Assembly: GCA_031261485.1 (NCBI GenBank)
Contig: JAISJO010000019.1
Location: 1-64,000, forward strand
Reading direction: 5' to 3'
Source: Propionibacteriaceae bacterium
GTDB lineage: Bacteria > Actinomycetota > Actinomycetes > Propionibacteriales > Propionibacteriaceae
DNA length: 64,000 nucleotides
A model generated the notes under the pieces. That model did not search any database, was not told the DNA's origin, and saw nothing but the letters and a program-made list of their open reading frames with translations. Made by a program: the position numbers and the translations under genes. Below, piece after piece: positions 5,085 through 18,079 of the stretch (the first letter of the stretch is position 1; every line of letters starts with the position of its first letter).

Positions 5085-6662
5085 TCAGAACCCGCTATCA
5101 ACAACACGCTCGAAGTCGATTCCGAGGTCTTCCATGACAATCATTGCGGCTGCTCTGGCACCGCCCGTGACACCACCACCTGGGTGAGTCGATGGGCCGC
5201 ACAGATACAGAGCTTCGGCGGGCAGCCGATAGTAGCCAGCCTCGGCGAACGGCCGGTGTGAGAAGTACTGGCCGATCATGTTCCGCAGATGAAGCGGGTC
5301 GCCATGCATCCAGGAGATGTTCATTCTCGCCAGGTCCGCCGGGCTGGTGACAGTGCGTCCCAAGATCGTGGCCGAGTTGATGTTGGTGGCGTACTGGGAG
5401 TAATTCGCAATCACTGCATCGGCGATTTCTTCTTTGCGTTCGTCCCAAGTGCCTTGGGCAAGGTCATAGGGCTCATACTGGAACGCATAGAGCGTGTGCT
5501 TACCGTCCGGCGCGCGCGTTGGATCAAGGTTGGTGGCGCAGACCACGCCTGGCATTTCGGTGGCAGGTAGGCCGTACTTGAAGCCATCAAAGGCTTGGCG
5601 CATCTGTGGCAGATACCCGCACAGTTCCACCAGCAGCGACTTGTCCAATTCCGGGTCGCCATACTTCGGTGCCTCGCTGAGAGCCAGATTGATATTGACT
5701 CCTGCAAATACGCTGGCTTTGGTGTTGTTCGTCTGACGGACGAAGTCCTCGCCGAGAGTATCTGCGCCCACCAAGCCGGGGAGTTGTTTGACGTTGACGT
5801 CCCCAATGACTGCCTTCTTAGCCAAGATCGTCTCTCCAGATTCCAAGGTCACGCCAGTCGCTCGGCCACCAGCAAGGTTGACTTTAGCCACGGTGGAGTT
5901 GGTGAGGATCGTCCCACCATTAGCTTCGACACAGCGGGCGAGGGCGGCCGAGAGTGCCCCGGAACCGCCAACCGGGATTCCCATCCCAAAGGTGTGGACG
6001 AGCGGAACCATGATGAATAGGAAAGAGCCGGTGCCAACATCGTCCGGCCCCACGATAATTTCTGAAACATAGCGTGCCAAGAAGGCCTTGACTATGTCAT
6101 TTTCGAACCAGTCGTCTAGAACGTCGAGACAACTCATCTGCATCGCGCGAAGGAGATCCCGACCTGGGCCTGGCTGATCGAGCTGTGCGAACAACCCACC
6201 GAAGGGCGGCGGCGGACCAAAGAAACCACCAATAAGCATGCCCAGAATCGGCTGCGCCCAAGTGGCGAACCGACGGTAAGCTTCGGCATCGCGCGGTGAA
6301 ACTGTGGCAATGGAAGCGCAGGTCTTGTCAAGATCGCGGTAGAACGACAAATGCTCACCACCAGGGAAAACTACCGAGACACAAGGGTGTTCGTCGGCAT
6401 AGACATATTTCAGACCGTGCTTGGACTTCAAACCCAACTCGTCATTGCGAAGTAGCGGATTTGCCTGAATGAAAATATGGGCGGTGGAGGCCAGGTCATG
6501 TTTGAACTCTGGAACGTTGGTCTCCAAGGTGATGGCACCTCCACCTAGGTAGGATTGCCGCTCGACTACGGCAACATCGAGTCCAGCTTTGGCCAAGTAG
6601 GCAGCGGCAGTGAGTCCATTGTGGCCTGCACCTATCACGACTACATCATGTGTATTGGGCAT
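5085..6662 (-). CDS. FAD-dependent oxidoreductase, phytoene-desaturase-like (COG1233)
   Basis: This is a 525-residue flavoprotein of the phytoene dehydrogenase/amine oxidase superfamily, closest in look to the PYROXD2-like branch. The N-terminal dinucleotide-binding motif is VVVIGAGHNGLTAAAYLAK, followed by VVERQSYLGGGA. The C-terminal FAD-binding motif is LYLCGPSTHPGGGVTGGAR. The substrate is unknown: no carotenoid genes are nearby, so a desaturase role in pigment synthesis is unsupported. The start was set by AGGAGGTG 7 bases upstream of MPNTHDVV. It is divergent from a TetR gene across a shared operator and is probably controlled by it. Confidence 0.88.
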   Translation of the reverse strand: MPNTHDVVVIGAGHNGLTAAAYLAKAGLDVAVVERQSYLGGGAITLETNVPEFKHDLASTAHIFIQANPLLRNDELGLKSKHGLKYVYADEHPCVSVVFPGGEHLSFYRDLDKTCASIATVSPRDAEAYRRFATWAQPILGMLIGGFFGPPPPFGGLFAQLDQPGPGRDLLRAMQMSCLDVLDDWFENDIVKAFLARYVSEIIVGPDDVGTGSFLFIMVPLVHTFGMGIPVGGSGALSAALARCVEANGGTILTNSTVAKVNLAGGRATGVTLESGETILAKKAVIGDVNVKQLPGLVGADTLGEDFVRQTNNTKASVFAGVNINLALSEAPKYGDPELDKSLLVELCGYLPQMRQAFDGFKYGLPATEMPGVVCATNLDPTRAPDGKHTLYAFQYEPYDLAQGTWDERKEEIADAVIANYSQYATNINSATILGRTVTSPADLARMNISWMHGDPLHLRNMIGQYFSHRPFAEAGYYRLPAEALYLCGPSTHPGGGVTGGARAAAMIVMEDLGIDFERVVDSGF

Positions 6663-9732: not shown

Positions 9733-10528
9733 ACGCTTTAGGAAACGGGGGACTACCCGCAGAATGACGAGGCAGGCTAGTCAGTGTTTGCCTTGGGTCG
9801 GCAGACCCGGAACTGATATCGTGGAGGCCTCGTTCTTGGGGAATGACACTACCGGCAAACTGTCCCATGCAGACGGCGCGAGCCAGAACGCTCAGCCAAC
9901 TGAGGTTGGTCCCGTAGACGCGATGGGGTGGACGCACAAAAGCTCCCTAAAATGTACGTATTCCAGGTTTCGCAGGTACGTAGCGCAACGAATTGGCCAA
10001 ATTCCGAGCAATATTCTCTAGTCACTGAACACGACAGTGTCATGTTGAGTTTCTTACTAGATGTGCACGAGGCAAAGACGGATGTCCGAAGCTGGCAAAC
10101 CCCATGGCCAGCAGTACAGCGGCTCCTGAAGGCTGATGTACAAGGGACAGGAGAAGGATGAGCACACCACTCACAATCGGCAGGCCGGGCGCAGCCCGTA
10201 GAGGGATTCCCCTACGCGGCCTGGACTTTTTCAAGATTCACGGTCGCGGCGCATCCCCTCGCCGTGCCATGGGTCTGGGTCTTGGCGAGTCCACATTCAA
10301 CGAACCGGTCTTGGCGCAGCTTGCGTTGGCAGAACCCCGATCCACGCAAGACAGCCCGCTGAGCAATTCCCCGACCCAAGTCTGGGTAAGAACGACCAGG
10401 CGAGCCGCTCGGCTGCTTGGTGCCACACCTCAACCCGCTGGGCTGGCGTGATGTCGGCAGGCCACACCTGCCGTCCCCCTGAATAACCAACAACAAGGAG
10501 GTGAGTGGAACTGACTCCCTATGGCATG
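9733..10528. other. Intergenic region without a convincing gene
   Basis: About 800 bases separate ydbT from the proA-like fragment. Open frames here are short and have poor codon use and no clear ribosome-binding sites. The segment 9779-9795 resembles the dispersed AACCACTGA repeat. The segment 10181-10223 can fold into a strong nested stem. No tRNA, RNase P or tmRNA signature was seen. It may be decayed accessory DNA at the edge of the island. Confidence 0.5.
10158..10451 (+). CDS. Doubtful small open frame
   Basis: A 97-codon frame beginning MSTPLTIGRPGAARRG has AGGAG four bases before the ATG. The protein is basic and has no recognisable domain. The frame lies over a stable stem-loop, which argues for an RNA or for non-coding DNA. 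I list it only because the stretch is otherwise empty. Confidence 0.2.
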   Translation: MSTPLTIGRPGAARRGIPLRGLDFFKIHGRGASPRRAMGLGLGESTFNEPVLAQLALAEPRSTQDSPLSNSPTQVWVRTTRRAARLLGATPQPAGLA

Positions 10529-10568
10529 AAGTGCCCGCTGGCTTCGGCTCGCGGGCACTTCTCTTTTT
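10529..10568 (+). terminator. Strong intrinsic terminator
   Basis: AAGTGCCCGC and GCGGGCACTT form a perfect 10-bp stem around a 12-base loop, followed by CTCTTTTT on the plus strand. It directly abuts the proA-like repeat. Confidence 0.75.
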
Positions 10569-10575
10569 CAGGCCA

Positions 10576-10635
10576 GTGTCTGACCTTCGCCGGTGATGAC
10601 GTACTTCGTGGCCGTCATCTCTTTGAGACCCATGG
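10576..10635 (-). pseudogene. proA 3'-end fragment, repeat copy A
   Basis: These 60 bases match the 3' end of native proA (16852-16911) at all but about three positions and lie in the same orientation. Read on the minus strand they encode MGLKEMTATKYVITGEGQT and then LA-stop; the native gene ends RV-stop. The different last codons show the fragment came from another proA allele, not from copying the local gene. No upstream proA sequence accompanies it beyond a few codons (SRGA against ARGP). It marks the left boundary of the island like an attachment-site repeat. Confidence 0.85.
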
Positions 10636-10683
10636 CACCCCTGGACTGTTCAGAGACCTGCAGGTGCGTCGGGCGGAAACTGG

Positions 10684-10944
10684 CTATGCGTCGTAGTGGA
10701 ATCGTGCCTGGAGAATGACGATTCCGTCAGGACGTACCTCATAGACAAGGCGATGTTCCTCTGTGATGCGGCGTGACCAGATGTTCCCCAGCTGGTACTT
10801 GAGGGGTTCGGGCTTGCCAATGCCCGAGGTGGGTGAGCGCAGGGCATCGTCAATCAGGCGATTGATTCGCTTGAGAGTGGCCCGGTCGGTTCCCTGCCAC
10901 CACACGTAGTCAGACCACCCGTTCGTTGAGAAGGCGAGAGTCAT
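10684..10944 (-). CDS. yoeB: YoeB/Txe-family mRNA interferase toxin
   Basis: This 86-residue protein is a textbook YoeB: WSDYVWWQGTDRATLKRINR, GIGKPEPLKYQL, then IWSRRITEEHRLVYEV and the C-terminal ARFHYDA. The Glu-His-Arg cluster in EEHRLVY and the terminal His-Tyr form the ribosome-dependent endoribonuclease active site. It is encoded directly after its YefM antitoxin with a 4-base ATGA overlap. It sits 48 bases from the proA fragment, at the left edge of the island. Confidence 0.96.
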   Translation of the reverse strand: MTLAFSTNGWSDYVWWQGTDRATLKRINRLIDDALRSPTSGIGKPEPLKYQLGNIWSRRITEEHRLVYEVRPDGIVILQARFHYDA

Positions 10945-11192
10945 GACCGATCCAGCTCGTGAACGCGGGCCTCTCCCTTGTGGGACTGAGCAATCGACCC
11001 AAGAAGATGCTCAGCATTGGCACGAGTCGAAAACAGATACCGTGTTGTCTGCCAGGCCTCGAAATCGTCCTCCGACACTAGAACGCCGTTGCCAGCCTTG
11101 GACGTGATTCGAACGGTTGTGTGATCCTCATTGACTTCCGCCAAGAGTGGGAACAAGCTTTGCCTCGCCTCGCTCGCCGTCATGGTTGACAT
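10941..11192 (-). CDS. yefM: YefM-family antitoxin
   Basis: This 83-residue antitoxin begins MSTMTASEARQSLFPLLAEV, the Phd/YefM N-terminal DNA-binding domain, and continues with TVRITSKAGNGVLVSEDDFE. The C-terminal part binds YoeB. The start was set by GGAGG 5 bases upstream; a longer frame runs through the operator. It should autorepress through the repeated ATTGTACGA sites upstream. Confidence 0.95.
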   Translation of the reverse strand: MSTMTASEARQSLFPLLAEVNEDHTTVRITSKAGNGVLVSEDDFEAWQTTRYLFSTRANAEHLLGSIAQSHKGEARVHELDRS

Positions 11193-11207
11193 TGTTCCTC
11201 CATCGGT

Positions 11208-11228
11208 ATTGTACGAAATATTGTACGA
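11208..11228. promoter_or_regulatory. Repeated YefM operator half-sites
   Basis: ATTGTACGA occurs twice, 3 bases apart, 15 bases upstream of the antitoxin ATG. Each contains TGTAC, most of the TGTACA core recognised by YefM proteins. Binding is inferred. Confidence 0.6.
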
Positions 11229-11468
11229 CTCGGACGAGGCTGCGTCAACAACCCTTCCGGAGCGAAGGCTCAAGAAGGCTGGACAGATCCAAACGACTCT
11301 TGGTATACGGCACGGGAGTTCCTGTAGTGGGGTTCACAGGGAACAACTCAGACAACACAATCTCCTTGCGCTCCTGACTTAGCCGTCAATCTCGAGATTT
11401 GTTTCCTACCGGAGTAGACGGCGAAGAACGCAACAAGACAAGCACGACTCGGATGGCCTCGCCTGTCC

Positions 11469-14072
11469 CTAGGAAAGCAAACTTGGCCCAGCTTTCGGCG
11501 GGTGCGGCTTTGGCATTGGGAGGTCTGTCTCAGCTGAGGTCTTGGAAGGTTGAGGACTTGGCGGTGTTTCCCCGTTAGGAATGTCCGCCTGTCGAAGATC
11601 GTAGAAGCTCCCGCTCAAGCGAAGGAGGGTACTTGAAATGCTGTCGCTGGCGTCCCGGACCATCGCTATCTGCGTGTAGGCCCGAACCCAATCGTTCTGC
11701 ACTTTCCTCCTGAACTCGTCTTGCACACGCAGTGTTGTCTCGGATTGGTGGCTTGACGACAAGCGCTCCAACACGCGAATTGAGTACTCGAGGAATGCAA
11801 GCCAAGTCACGAAACTCGTCGTATTCTTCTCGAAACTCGCGGCTTTCTCAAATGCAGAGTAAGCGCGATCATAGTACGCATCAACGTCCACCTGAGCACG
11901 TGCAGCCTTTTCAAGGAGAACGGTTCCCAGTGTCGTGAAACTGTACGTATCTGGAAGCAAGTCTGTTGCACGAATTGCAAAAGACTCTGCTTTAGCCAGC
12001 AATGACTCGTCCGACACCGATTCTCGGCGAGCAAGGATCGCACGCTGTTCCCAGTACCGTCCACTCCAGGACCCGAAGACATCAAGTAGCGACTCGTAGA
12101 AAACGTCCAAGTCTGCGCCTGCGAACGCCACAGTCAAGTTGCGACGCGACATAAAGGCACCAATGAGCAGGGCAGTCGGGTTTCGCTCTCTCCGACTCTT
12201 GTCGCCGAGCCTCCCGGACACACTCCGGATTCCGTCTCGCACAATCTCAGCCGCGGCCTCGGCCCCTAGCCTGCCCACCAATGGCTCAAGAGCCATCCAG
12301 CGATGGCGAGTCCAGACACGTGTTCCATCCGTTGAGAGCAAGGACGATAGCTGTGAGTCTTTCCCCACACACCTAACCAGAGCATCACTATCAAGGCCTG
12401 CCATCCGCGCTGCATCGATGACAAGCAAATCGTGATTCACCAGCGATGCATAGGAGGCGACGAGGACCAACTTCTCCTTGGTGGGATCTTCGATACCGAC
12501 AAGCAACTCACCTACCCGACGACCAAATCCAGGGGCATTCTCCAAGTCAGCCATTGAAGAGAAGAGGCCCTTGCCCCGGAAGTGTGCCACCCGTCCCTTG
12601 TCGGGCCTATTGTCGATGATGCCTAGTCGACCAACCCTGGCCAGAGAATCCACAAGTCGGTTTGCGTCGATACTCGATAACCTATCTCGAATACTTGCCA
12701 CCCTATGGTGCGCAAGATGTGCGTTCTGCATTTTCCCGACGATGTTCGCTTCCTCGTGGGAATCATCCACAGCAACGCAGATTACACTGAGCCCTGCGCT
12801 CCGCGCGTCGGCCACAAGCTGATCGACATCGTCAACGAAGGCCGCCACACCGTCGAACAGAAGAGCAAGCGACTTGCCATTGGAGGCGAACCCAAGTATT
12901 GCCTCCTTATCAATTCGCCCAGATCCTCTGAACAGAAAAGTGCGCCAGGAACCCGCGCGAAGATGGTAGCCGACTTGCAAGAGTCCCGTTGAGCGTCCGG
13001 TCAACCTTTTCCCCGTATATGCAATAAGTGTCGAGGTATGAATCGTCTGGCCAATCTGGTCACAATCTGCTTTCGCGCTCGACACCCATTCAAGTTCAGC
13101 AGCAAGGTGATTCTCGATGTCACTCCATAGGGGTTCGTCCCCTCCGAGAAAGTCATGACCTCTCTGGACGGATGGCGACGAAGAAATGTTCAATTCGGTG
13201 AATTGGTGACCGACGCGCATAGCGAGTTCCTCATCTCCCGCGATGCCGTGCTCAAGGTCGAGCCCAGTCAGCTCCCCCCACTCCAGAACAAAATCCTCAG
13301 CTGACAGTTCTACGGGCACTAGGCCCCACCGGATGAGGTCATCGCGGGTTGCCGCAGAAATCGTCTTGGACACGTAGAAGCTAGGCGCGGCATGTGTCGG
13401 CCTACGACTCCGAATGACTGCTTCAATGTCGGGCTCGTCACGCATACGAGCGCCGATAATGACAAAGGGTGAGTTCCCATACGAATCACGGAAGTTGACC
13501 GGCCACGCCGCCGGAGTGGCGGCCGCACCTGCGTACTGGCTGAGCGAGAACACCAGCTTCCTTAAAGCGTCCTGGTCGACTACGCCATGCAGGTGAACCA
13601 CATTAAGTTCTCGGCCTTGACGGTATTCATCATCCCAGTTGAGGGTTTGGATGCGCTTCATTGATTCTGTAGCAACCGACCTGTAGGCCGCCTCGAAAGT
13701 GTCATCTACGTTCAACGTCCAGACCGTGGACCACGGGCTGCGCGCATAGTACTCCATCCAGTAAGGCGGTATGACATTCCAGAAATTGCGCCTGAACCAA
13801 GCATATATCTCGGGCTCGCCGATCTTCTCTGCAGCCCTATCGTATACACGCCAAAGTTGATCGTCTTCCTCAGCAGCCACGCCGAATTGCGTGCATAGAC
13901 GCCTGATCAATTCTTCACCGCCTGACAGGTTCTCACCTGCAGGAGAGACCGAGTCTCTGCTTGCTCCGGCCCCAAGCATCAAGTGGTAGTCACGATTGCG
14001 AACTGCACGTCGGAGAGCGAGCTTTTGCTGCCTCGTAATACCAATGGAATCAGCTGGAAGGCTTGTGGTCAT
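11469..14072 (-). CDS. SIR2-domain protein with P-loop (STAND-like) middle domain, probable phage defence
   Basis: This large protein has an N-terminal SIR2 domain: LMLGAGASRDS at residues 32-41, WTLNVDD at 118-124 (equivalent of the NYD motif) and VVHLHG at 158-163, with IIGARMRDEPD near 205-215. These are the NAD-binding and catalytic positions. Residues 308-319 (FLGGDEPLWSDI) match the linker that precedes the NTPase module in SIR2/STAND proteins. A degenerate Walker A (G-KRLT-GRST, 354-362, Arg for Lys) and a Walker-B-like SLALLFDGV (401-409) follow. The C-terminal 350 residues are helical and TPR-like, ending in a Pro/Ser/Thr-rich tail. Related proteins deplete NAD+ on phage infection. 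The start MTTSLPADS gives 867 residues; an in-frame ATG 46 codons upstream is possible. No Shine-Dalgarno is clear. Confidence 0.8.
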   Translation of the reverse strand: MTTSLPADSIGITRQQKLALRRAVRNRDYHLMLGAGASRDSVSPAGENLSGGEELIRRLCTQFGVAAEEDDQLWRVYDRAAEKIGEPEIYAWFRRNFWNVIPPYWMEYYARSPWSTVWTLNVDDTFEAAYRSVATESMKRIQTLNWDDEYRQGRELNVVHLHGVVDQDALRKLVFSLSQYAGAAATPAAWPVNFRDSYGNSPFVIIGARMRDEPDIEAVIRSRRPTHAAPSFYVSKTISAATRDDLIRWGLVPVELSAEDFVLEWGELTGLDLEHGIAGDEELAMRVGHQFTELNISSSPSVQRGHDFLGGDEPLWSDIENHLAAELEWVSSAKADCDQIGQTIHTSTLIAYTGKRLTGRSTGLLQVGYHLRAGSWRTFLFRGSGRIDKEAILGFASNGKSLALLFDGVAAFVDDVDQLVADARSAGLSVICVAVDDSHEEANIVGKMQNAHLAHHRVASIRDRLSSIDANRLVDSLARVGRLGIIDNRPDKGRVAHFRGKGLFSSMADLENAPGFGRRVGELLVGIEDPTKEKLVLVASYASLVNHDLLVIDAARMAGLDSDALVRCVGKDSQLSSLLSTDGTRVWTRHRWMALEPLVGRLGAEAAAEIVRDGIRSVSGRLGDKSRRERNPTALLIGAFMSRRNLTVAFAGADLDVFYESLLDVFGSWSGRYWEQRAILARRESVSDESLLAKAESFAIRATDLLPDTYSFTTLGTVLLEKAARAQVDVDAYYDRAYSAFEKAASFEKNTTSFVTWLAFLEYSIRVLERLSSSHQSETTLRVQDEFRRKVQNDWVRAYTQIAMVRDASDSISSTLLRLSGSFYDLRQADIPNGETPPSPQPSKTSAETDLPMPKPHPPKAGPSLLS

Positions 14073-14579
14073 GGGTAAAGCATGACAGTAACGTCGCTGC
14101 GTTGTTGGCGAAGGCCAAAGTGTGGGATTCACTGTGGCTTCGGCGAGGCGGATTGCTAGAACGGAGACTCTCGTTGACAACACTGTGTCCAAGTCATGTT
14201 TCTTTCTCACACCAGGAGTTTCATCCCGACAGTCTGCCGGACGGAAAGGAACCCTGCTGCGGAGAGGGGCTTCTCATTAGCCACCCTCCAACTCGTGCGG
14301 AATCGACTTGGAACTGACGGAAGGACGGCAAGAATCATCACAAAGAGACACCTCCTCGGGCGCCAGCCTCGAGAGTGACCAAGGAGGACAGAATACTCCC
14401 GTCAGTTGGGCTGGACAGCGCAATAGGCAGGGTCCGTGGTGCGGTGCCGATACTGCCATCAACTGTTCGACCAGAGGCCGAGAATCTGGTCTCCATTGAT
14501 TCAGATGAGACGAGGTCAATCTCAGAGCGCCTGCCGACGAGTCTTCGTACTAGAAGCGCAGTGGCAGGTTACCTCTACT
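14073..14579. other. Region between the SIR2 gene and repeat copy B
   Basis: About 500 bases with no strong gene. A 75-codon plus-strand frame (14375-14602) has plausible residue composition (ILPSVGLDSAIGRVRGAVP, RSAVAGYLYSLFRASV) but starts at GTG without a ribosome-binding site and ends inside repeat copy B. It could be the 3' remnant of a gene cut off by a recombination event. Confidence 0.4.
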
Positions 14580-14617
14580 CTCTTTTTCGGGCCAGTGTCT
14601 GACCCTCACCAGTGGCG
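14580..14617 (-). repeat. Partial proA 3'-end repeat, copy B
   Basis: The core GTGTCTGACCCTCACCAGTG at 14595 aligns with the proA terminus in copies A and C; on the minus strand it encodes TGEGQTLA. It also shares with copy A the flank CTCTTTTTCRGGCCA, which is not part of proA, so A and B derive from the same kind of donor sequence. Only about 25 bases of proA homology remain. It divides the island into two cargo segments. Confidence 0.65.
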
Positions 14618-15298
14618 ATGAAAACGGACCAATCGGATAAGGTCATTCACATACGTTCTGCTGGAAAGACCCACGTGAAGAAGACACTGATCAAGCGCAC
14701 GCTCATGACTATTGTCGGGGTCAGTCTTGTCTCCGTTGCGGTTGCTCTGCTGCGCCTGTCAGACTTGGGAACGGATCCCTACACCGTTTTGGTGATGGGT
14801 CTGGCCCATGCGTTTGATTCCACATATTTCGTGATTTTCACCATTGTCAGCGTCGCTCTGCTGGTGGGCGCCCTCATTTTCGCTCGAAACCTCCTGGGAT
14901 TTGGGACAGTCTGTGTCCTCTTGCTGATAGGCGCCATCGCAGATCAGGTGTTCAACGTCCTAGTGAACGTTTTCCCAGACCCGACTGTTCTCACGCGGAG
15001 CCTACTGCTCATAGGTGGCATCGCCGTCATGTGCCTTGGCTCAAGCCTGTACTACACGGCTGACTTGGGTGTGTCACCTTATGACTGCGTCGCACTCAGG
15101 CTTTCGAGAAAACACCCGAAGAGATTCAAGTACATACGCATCACGGCGGACTTGACCTGTACAGGGATTGGTTTCGTTCTCGGAGGCACAGTCGGGGTGG
15201 GCACTGTTGTCACTGCCTTCTTCATGGGGCCCCTCATCGCCTGGATGAATGAGCACATCGCCAAGCCGCTGCTGAAGGAGAAGGCCAGCGCAGACTAG
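14612..15298 (+). CDS. YczE/YitT-like integral membrane protein
   Basis: This 228-residue protein has five or six membrane helices starting at about residue 28 and the two family motifs RLSDLGTDPYTVLVMG and YYTADLGVSPYDCVAL, an internal repeat typical of YczE-like proteins. Transport substrate and role are unknown. The start is GTG at this position or ATG six bases later. Both lie inside or at the edge of repeat copy B, and no Shine-Dalgarno is visible, so the native 5' signals may have been replaced when the repeat formed. Confidence 0.82.
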   Translation: MAMKTDQSDKVIHIRSAGKTHVKKTLIKRTLMTIVGVSLVSVAVALLRLSDLGTDPYTVLVMGLAHAFDSTYFVIFTIVSVALLVGALIFARNLLGFGTVCVLLLIGAIADQVFNVLVNVFPDPTVLTRSLLLIGGIAVMCLGSSLYYTADLGVSPYDCVALRLSRKHPKRFKYIRITADLTCTGIGFVLGGTVGVGTVVTAFFMGPLIAWMNEHIAKPLLKEKASAD

Positions 15299-15367
15299 TC
15301 CTCGCCCACGCATCCCCGGTGGAGACGCGCAGAACAACACACAAACCTTTGAGTTCTCTTGTCGGCA

Positions 15368-16807
15368 CTAAAGCAGAGTCGCAATGAACGCAAACGCCGC
15401 TGCTTCGTCAACCGGTCCAAAATGGACACCGCCTCCAGTTGTCCACGTGGAGTCCGGAGGGTTGGTTATGGCGACGTCGATTTCTGAATAGCTTTCGGCG
15501 CGGACATCGACAACGACCACGGAAGTGACGCCCTGATAGCCGTCGGACCCATCGCTGTATGTGCCGTACAGGTCTCCTTTCCTGAACTTGATCATGACGA
15601 GGTGATGGCAGTCGTTGGGGCTCACGGCAATACGGTCCACTGGGACGCCGTACGCGCTGGCATCAAGTCTGTCGCCGCCCAACCGGTGCTCTGATGTGTA
15701 GCCATAGCTGCTGACGTACACCTTGTCGTCGATCCTCGCCGCAGTGCCAGTGTTGTCCAGCGTTTGATAGAAGTCGAGGTACGCCTCTCGCCATTCCCCA
15801 AATTCTAGGTCCGTGCCGTATTGGAATTGGTCATAGGACTCTATTGAAAACTCTGCGGCAGGGCGGCCTTGAATAGTCTCCATGGTGGGACACGACCTAG
15901 CCGCGTCCATGACGTTCACGTCCTGCAAGCTCACAGCAGTCGGATCTTTCCAACTGCTTCCGTTCAGGGTGGCGAGCGCCTCGTTCGCAGAGGCCGCAAA
16001 ACGCACCTCCCGAAGGGCGAGGCAGCCAGCGAAGACGGCAACCGAGTCATAGGACACGGAGAAATTCGGTGACACCTGCCCCTTGCTGCCAGTGGATTGG
16101 CGTTTGTTGGGAACGATCCACAATGTTTCCACCTTTGGTTGTGCGTCCAGCCCTGCCAGGGAGTACCAGAATGAAGACCCACGAGACAACTCAGGGACCA
16201 AAGTCAGGTCGATGATCAGTCTCTCGAGCGATTCCAGCGCAGGAGTGTCAGCGAGCACCAACTCATGGCCCACCGCCAAGGTCACAGGACAACTGACGCC
16301 TGCGAGGGGACCCAACTCCGCCGCGCTGACAGGCGCCGCGGCGCCTCTCGTGTCGACGATCAACGAAGAGCATGGGATGGCACTCAGATAGCTGTACCGA
16401 CTCCACTGCGCATCCGTCGGCCGAAAACCCCTCACAAGGTCGATGGAAACGGATATCCTCTTGCCGTCGCTGGGGCCTGCGATGGCGTCGAACAGCGGTT
16501 GGCTGTCAGCATTGACGTAGAGTTCGAGCGAATCGGCGCTTGGGTCGTACTCCGCATAGCCGATGTCCTCTTCAGACGCCTCTTGGGCTGCCTTTGCCGC
16601 GAAATACGCCGACTCGGTTGGCGTGCGACCGACCGGTATAGCTGTGTCCTTCGCACTCGAACCACCCGAACCGCTCGAGGCTGGCGCACCGCAACCAGCG
16701 AGGGATAGGCACGACAACACCAGTACCAACGATACAAGAGTTGTTACCCCATGTCTGGCTGTCGCGGAACCACCTTTGGGAAATGCTGCCCCACCTGTGC
16801 TACGCAT
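15368..16807 (-). CDS. Secreted lipoprotein of unknown function
   Basis: This 479-residue protein has a long lipoprotein signal peptide: a basic start, a hydrophobic stretch (TTLVSLVLVLSCLSLAGC) and the lipobox cysteine at residue 39. A Ser/Gly-rich linker (APASSGSGGSSAKD) follows, then a large extracellular domain of about 400 residues that I do not recognise. Parts such as LESLERLIIDLTLVPEL and CLALREVRFAAS hint at irregular leucine-rich-type spacing. The ATG has GGGAGGC 7 bases upstream. It is the last cargo gene of the island before proA. Confidence 0.8.
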   Translation of the reverse strand: MRSTGGAAFPKGGSATARHGVTTLVSLVLVLSCLSLAGCGAPASSGSGGSSAKDTAIPVGRTPTESAYFAAKAAQEASEEDIGYAEYDPSADSLELYVNADSQPLFDAIAGPSDGKRISVSIDLVRGFRPTDAQWSRYSYLSAIPCSSLIVDTRGAAAPVSAAELGPLAGVSCPVTLAVGHELVLADTPALESLERLIIDLTLVPELSRGSSFWYSLAGLDAQPKVETLWIVPNKRQSTGSKGQVSPNFSVSYDSVAVFAGCLALREVRFAASANEALATLNGSSWKDPTAVSLQDVNVMDAARSCPTMETIQGRPAAEFSIESYDQFQYGTDLEFGEWREAYLDFYQTLDNTGTAARIDDKVYVSSYGYTSEHRLGGDRLDASAYGVPVDRIAVSPNDCHHLVMIKFRKGDLYGTYSDGSDGYQGVTSVVVVDVRAESYSEIDVAITNPPDSTWTTGGGVHFGPVDEAAAFAFIATLL

Positions 16808-16843
16808 GTCTTTGCCTCCCTGCCGCCTTGGCTCTTTCATCTT

Positions 16844-18079
16844 TCAAACCCGTGTCTGACCTTCGCCGGTGATAACATACTTCGTGGCCGTCATCTCTTT
16901 GAGTCCCATGGGGCCTCTGGCGTGGAGTTTCTGTGTGGAGATACCAATCTCTGCCCCGAAGCCGAACTGTCCCCCATCCACGAAACGGCTGGACGCATTG
17001 ACGAGGACGCACGCGGCATCCACTTCCGCGACGAACAACCGTTGGTGTGCGAGATCGTTCGTGAGGATGGTCTCCGAATGGCCTGACGTGTGCTCCCGGA
17101 TGAAACTAATCGCCTCTTCGACACCTGCGACAATGCCCACACGCAAGTCCAGGGACAGGAACTCGGCGTCCCATTGATCGGCCTTGTCAATCCGGGGATC
17201 GAGCGCCATGGCAGCCTCGTCGCCATGGACTTTCACCCCGGCGGCAACCAGGGCGTCCACAATCTCGGGCACGTATTTCGCCGCAATGTCCTCGTGGACC
17301 AGCAGGGTCTCCAAGGCATTACACACCGATGGGCGCTGGACCTTGGCATTGAGAACGATAGCGGTGGCCTTCTCCAAGTCAGCCGAAGAATCCACAAAGA
17401 TATGGCAGTTGCCTGTTCCTGTTTCGATGACGGGGACCTGCGAACCGGTGACCACGGCGGCGATCAGGGAAGCGCCACCCCTGGGGATGAGAAGGTCCAC
17501 GAGCCCGCGTGCCTTCATCATGTCGCCGGTGACCTCATGCCCGCCCTCGACCAAGTTCACGGCGTTCGGGTCGATACCTGCGTTGACAAGCCCTTCCTTC
17601 AGAGCCGCGACGACTGCCCGGTTGGAGTGGATGGCGGTGGACGACCCCCGCAATAGAACGGCATTTCCCGCTTTGAGGCAGATACCTGCTGCATCGGCGG
17701 TGACGTTGGGGCGAGCTTCATAGATGATGCCGATGACCCCCATCGGTACCCTCACTTGGTCGATATGGAGACCATTGGCCAGGTCCCAGCCAGCCACGGT
17801 CTCTCCCACCGGGTCGGGCAGGGCAACGAGGTCGAGCAGCCCTTCCACCATCGCGTCCACACGAGACACGGTCAACGACAGGCGGTCGATGAGGGAGACA
17901 TCCATACCGGCGTCTTGTCCAGTCTCCACATCAAGAGCATTCGCGGCAAGGATGTTGGACATGTGGGCGGCGAGCGAATCGGCCATGGATTGCAAACTGG
18001 CGTCCTTTGCCCCTCTTGTCAGAGTCGCAAGAGTGATGGCCGCTTGTCTTGCGGAGTGAGCCTGGTCAATGAATGTCAT
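16844..18079 (-). CDS. proA: Glutamate-5-semialdehyde dehydrogenase (gamma-glutamyl phosphate reductase)
   Basis: ProA reduces gamma-glutamyl phosphate to glutamate semialdehyde with NADPH, the second step of proline synthesis. The 411 residues are normal length. Seen in the sequence: MGVIGIIYEARPNVTADAAG, AVLLRGSSTAIHSN, and the catalytic-cysteine region AKVQRPSVCNALETLLV. The C-terminus MGLKEMTATKYVITGEGQT-RV is complete. It follows proB by 9 bases. Its last 60 bases are repeated at 10576-10635, so the gene end has served as an insertion point while remaining functional. Confidence 0.97.
   Translation of the reverse strand: MTFIDQAHSARQAAITLATLTRGAKDASLQSMADSLAAHMSNILAANALDVETGQDAGMDVSLIDRLSLTVSRVDAMVEGLLDLVALPDPVGETVAGWDLANGLHIDQVRVPMGVIGIIYEARPNVTADAAGICLKAGNAVLLRGSSTAIHSNRAVVAALKEGLVNAGIDPNAVNLVEGGHEVTGDMMKARGLVDLLIPRGGASLIAAVVTGSQVPVIETGTGNCHIFVDSSADLEKATAIVLNAKVQRPSVCNALETLLVHEDIAAKYVPEIVDALVAAGVKVHGDEAAMALDPRIDKADQWDAEFLSLDLRVGIVAGVEEAISFIREHTSGHSETILTNDLAHQRLFVAEVDAACVLVNASSRFVDGGQFGFGAEIGISTQKLHARGPMGLKEMTATKYVITGEGQTRV
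16852..16911 (-). repeat. Native proA 3' end, repeat copy C
   Basis: This is the in-gene copy of the repeat found at 10576-10635 and partly at 14595-14614. The direct-repeat arrangement with 6.2 kb between copies A and C resembles the attachment sites of an element that integrates into the 3' end of proA. Confidence 0.75.

Follow-up and report, generated by a model that had tools for sequence, protein, structure and literature searches.

Displaced copies of the proA 3' end suggest two successive insertions at one gene end in a Propionibacteriaceae genome

The DNA analysed here, referred to as the window, is a 64,000-nucleotide stretch from a Propionibacteriaceae bacterium, and it carries an intact proA gene (positions 16844-18079, minus strand) encoding a glutamate-5-semialdehyde dehydrogenase of 411 amino acids, whose matches to TIGR00407 (458 bits) and NF001221 (552.8 bits) both exceed the cut-offs. 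The tail of this host gene was found three times in the same orientation, as the native end (copy C) and as two further copies (A and B), all of them within proA and the 6.3 kb downstream of it. Element 1 (10645-14578, approximately 3.9 kb) lies between copies A and B and is bounded by these repeat copies, and element 2 (14615-16851, approximately 2.2 kb) lies between the cores of copies B and C and is bounded by reciprocal junctions. The G+C content of the island is slightly below that of its flanks.

Element 1 encodes a YoeB toxin (10684-10944, minus strand; PF06769, 118.4 bits; TIGR02116, 104 bits) and a YefM-type antitoxin (10941-11210, minus strand; PF02604, 56.9 bits; TIGR01552, 36.8 bits), whose adjacent genes overlap by 4 bp and both score above the Pfam cut-off, as a YefM-YoeB toxin-antitoxin pair. 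The remaining gene (11469-14069, minus strand) encodes an 866 amino acid protein that a preliminary description of this DNA had called a SIR2 protein; its account of the cargo stands, with the refinement that the Pfam matches are to a SIR2 domain together with a STAND NTPase (PF13289, 31.9 bits, and PF25199, 39.3 bits, both above cut-off). The translation contains GAGAS and HLHG sequences of the kind seen in SIR2 proteins. The protein matched no PADLOC defence model, its SIR2 and STAND domains being recognised at Pfam level only; it is likely to be a defence gene product, and its domains would fit an NAD-depleting antiphage role. No orthologue was present in the 14 genus mates searched, 148 genomes of the family yielded a single relative, 33% identical, and viral contigs and plasmids yielded none.

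Element 2 opens at the edge of copy B with the start of a gene for a YczE-like membrane protein (14618-15298, plus strand), which matched NF052291 at 104.5 bits, below the cut-off of 205, and had no match in 18 genus mates. The second gene (15368-16807, minus strand), co-directional with proA, encodes a predicted lipoprotein with a lipobox-like LSLAGC motif read from the sequence and no Pfam, NCBIfam or PHROG match. The same 18 genus mates contained no lipoprotein orthologue, only two weak partial matches, and one weak partial match was found elsewhere in its own genome. This distant paralogue, 27% identical over the C-terminal part, lies at 8677-9279 of contig C87, where a tyrosine recombinase match is found around 7 kb away, at 1559-2095.

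Copy A (10560-10644, minus strand) is a complete but displaced proA end, comprising 77 bp of the gene and 8 bp past the stop codon. Over native positions 16852-16911 it is identical to the proA tail at 57/60 bases, as the preliminary description had noted with its count of about three differences, and the alignment can be lengthened to 79 bp, with 89% identity (E 2.5e-23 in a search of the 2.8-Mb genome). Copy B, which had been placed at 14595-14614, is real and longer than that, extending over 14579-14614 (minus strand; 32/36 bases identical to A, E 7.9e-7 in the same search). There was no convincing fourth copy across the 2.8-Mb genome, the next-best place having an E value of 0.06. The repeat begins within proA and stops just beyond the stop codon, and similarity ends past its edges (3/30 bases match beyond the right end shared by A and C, and 6/30 past the left arm shared by A and B).

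Each copy was compared in three parts. The 20-bp core (14595-14614 in B, 16852-16871 in C) is identical between A and C (20/20) and matches at 17/20 bases both between A and B and between B and C. The 16-bp left arm (14579-14594 in B) is shared by A and B (15/16), with 9/16 between A and C and 8/16 between B and native proA; these are the flanking bases that the preliminary description had correctly seen to be common to A and B and lacking in the native gene. The 40-bp right arm is shared by A and C (37/40), copy C thus spanning 16852-16920 (minus strand), and is absent from B (11/40 against A). At the C flank (16836-16851, minus strand) the last two codons, the stop and the bases beyond differ from those of A and B, and the endings had been read correctly as LA-stop in A, LAR in B and RV-stop in C. 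Written as arms around the core, the copies are x-core-y (A), x-core-z (B) and w-core-y (C). As the left arm of A is common to B only and its right arm to C only, A is an intact proA end, and the pattern makes B and C reciprocal junctions of one insert; joining the left part of B to the right part of C restores 78/85 bases of A, and the converse join 39/85. B and C are thereby read as the two sides left by one insertion into an x-core-y site.

Directly past copy A lies a strong hairpin (10528-10561), after which the plus strand has a run of T; its minimum free energy is -31.6 kcal/mol on the plus strand and -32.5 kcal/mol on the minus strand (z -3.9 and -5.1). No such hairpin was found at the present proA end (z 0.2), and the hairpin beyond A is probably the original terminator of proA. 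Since copy A has both arms and adjoins a hairpin that the present end lacks, the best reading is that A is the original chromosomal end, now displaced, and the present end C, with its RV codons, stop and flank, would be the altered one, the native order being preserved in none of the relatives. The proposal in the preliminary description that the extra tails came from another proA allele is revised in this sense. Just before the hairpin is a 97 amino acid reading frame (10158-10451, plus strand) with a good ribosome-binding site and no Pfam, NCBIfam or PHROGs match.

The reading frame of proA was also examined as it would stand with element 2 taken out. The joined end (B-left with C-right) is open to a stop codon and reads GEGQTLARKRE-stop, so that the frame is preserved at each step. 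The part of the coding overlap that aligns with confidence holds six substitutions, three between A and C and three between A and B, and all of them fall at the third codon position; the chance of this is approximately 0.0014 if all positions are equally liable, in a small sample. This bias suggests that the tails were still acting as functional ends of a gene as they diverged.

From this anatomy we infer an order of events. Insertion of element 1 at the native proA end would have displaced the original end A together with its hairpin, while proA retained a functional copy of its tail; the 85-bp repeat around element 1 looks like the footprint of this earlier insertion at the gene end. Because B and C are reciprocal, element 2 went into an A-type end that belonged to proA, and it would have entered that tail within the 20-bp core. 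It would then have lain with element 1 on one side and proA on the other, joined to the first through half-site B and to the second through C, which supplied proA with a new pair of final codons, a new stop and a new flank. The reading frame of proA would have survived each insertion. We hold with moderate confidence that the locus is a tandem array, in which two small integrated elements were stacked at the proA 3' end by a site-specific recombinase acting in trans or since lost. Such an enzyme would recognise the proA 3' end, as in CIMEs. The arm-by-arm comparison and the reciprocal B and C junctions bear out the earlier suggestion of successive insertions at this gene end, and the intact proA with its two above-cut-off matches bears out the suggestion that the host gene was left functional. 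Nothing resembling an integrase is among the cargo gene matches, which are to toxin-antitoxin, SIR2/STAND and YczE families only, in line with the earlier statement that no recombinase remains in the element. The genome encodes five tyrosine recombinases, all on other contigs, which together with the lack of one in the island weighs against the tandem-array reading. So do twenty comparisons of the ends of elements 1 and 2, which gave no convincing similarity of the kind that would mark a common recombinase (best p 0.02). On contig C62 of the same genome a tmRNA gene (5245-5613) and a tyrosine recombinase gene are about 1 kb apart, consistent with an ssrA-targeting element.

CIME tandems arise by accretion at the 3' end of a gene (review PMC5704250). 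They resemble the present locus in that the elements stand in tandem where a host gene that is kept comes to its end, with att-like copies of its 3' end as borders and no integration or transfer genes. Here, copies A, B and C provide flanking direct repeats of attL and attR type with a common core and reciprocal arms. Unlike in CIME tandems, the target here is proA and no related autonomous element was found at the site, the genomes searched containing neither a proA-associated integrase, as of an ICE or IME with the same att site, nor a second proA tail. The ssrA genomic islands of Dehalococcoides are likewise stacked, with 20-bp direct repeats of the gene 3' end, and 15 of them are without an integration module (PMC3146451); they differ in that their target is an RNA gene and most keep a serine recombinase, whereas here the target is protein-coding and no recombinase was found. 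The elements are best read as integrase-less tandem relics like the described CIMEs and ssrA islands. As no autonomous relative was found at the proA site, and as their mobility is putative, we do not assign them outright to the CIMEs.

An insertion with long target duplication, or illegitimate recombination assisted by homology, in which foreign DNA with defence and toxin-antitoxin genes duplicated or brought with it part of the proA end and no site-specific recombinase took part, is a possible though doubtful alternative. Insertions of this kind (Nobusato et al. 2000, as cited in PMC1643837 and PMC3031569) have been described for restriction-modification genes, and to the extent that those citing papers set them out they share with element 1 the defence-type cargo, the long direct repeat (here 85 bp) and the lack of a recombinase. 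It also fits this explanation that the event is unique among the genomes searched, and the core copies, which agree at 17-20 of 20 bases and are not all identical, speak against the tandem-array reading. A process blind to its target does not, however, predict two insertions at the same 20 bp of the same gene end with the frame kept both times, a feature in which the locus departs from the insertions as presented in those sources, nor that the coding differences should all be third-position when displaced copies ought to drift freely. The CIME-like reading is favoured because the 20 bp used and the preservation of the frame are common to both insertions. That the tails are what remains of decayed, tandemly duplicated full-length proA genes would suit their shared orientation with proA and the common flanking bases of A and B, but we judge it very unlikely, as the genome has no other proA fragment, both relics are sharply bounded and correspond precisely to the 3' end, and B and C as reciprocal halves of an A-type site would go unexplained. 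A chimeric join at the repeats is scarcely credible even for a metagenome assembly in 112 contigs with no near relative for checking, as the repeats, at 36-85 bp, are short and not identical to one another, and completeness is 98.3% with 0.15% contamination.

As a check, the preliminary description had suggested comparing strains, where an empty site in some and different cargo flanked by proA tails in others would support it, and looking for an integrase in longer islands. A match to the proA C-terminus was present in some 490 actinomycete genomes (131 of the family and 365 of the class), and this was the only one with two tails; the coding tail was not repeated nearby in 80 diverse proA loci, nor in the proA regions of relatives. 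The recurrence looked for was thus not seen in these genomes, which give no evidence of proA as a recurrent or common landing site, and that idea was rejected. In genus mates the first frames downstream of proA, read by eye, look like genes other than integrases, and as no integrase-bearing version at proA was found and recurrence was absent, the recombinase remains inferred. No empty site was found among relatives, which are too distant for this, the nearest proA being about 72% identical and the shared local gene order being proBA only. No exact match to a 22-bp core was present in viral contigs.

The island is of a type already known, with a familiar mechanism, at a target gene that has apparently gone unreported; no literature naming proA as an attachment site was found. 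From a single genome, two successive insertions are here supported at the level of bases, at the end of a protein-coding gene that was kept working, with defence-type cargo. Should a recombinase for the proA site exist, proA would join the safe landing sites, and if there is none the locus is a tidy example of a process already described. The bolder idea, that an undescribed recombinase in gut Propionibacteriaceae targets the proA 3' end and in trans moves and stacks recombinase-less cassettes of 2-4 kb, defence genes among them, with the proA stop renewed each time, is distinctly unlikely.

Several candidate parallels were considered, and most were rejected. In one genus mate (G013, contig C103) a gene with a DUF559/REase-like domain lies between proA and an RDD-family gene, which follows proA in several genus mates; the 73-bp repeat flanking the DUF559-type gene is a dispersed palindrome found in about seven places in that genome, and this parallel was therefore discarded. 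A phage record with proA (S. suis) holds a full proBA-proC run and is thus host-type DNA, and among the viral contigs with proA that were examined, those of enterobacterial type have tRNA-Thr beside proA, marking a tRNA site. In the IMG/VR record UViG_2698536600_000002 (9.4 kb), which has no duplicated proA tail, a 559 amino acid serine-recombinase-like gene lies 317-1996 bases past the end of an intact proA, convergent with it and followed by phage-like genes; integration near proA may have happened independently here.
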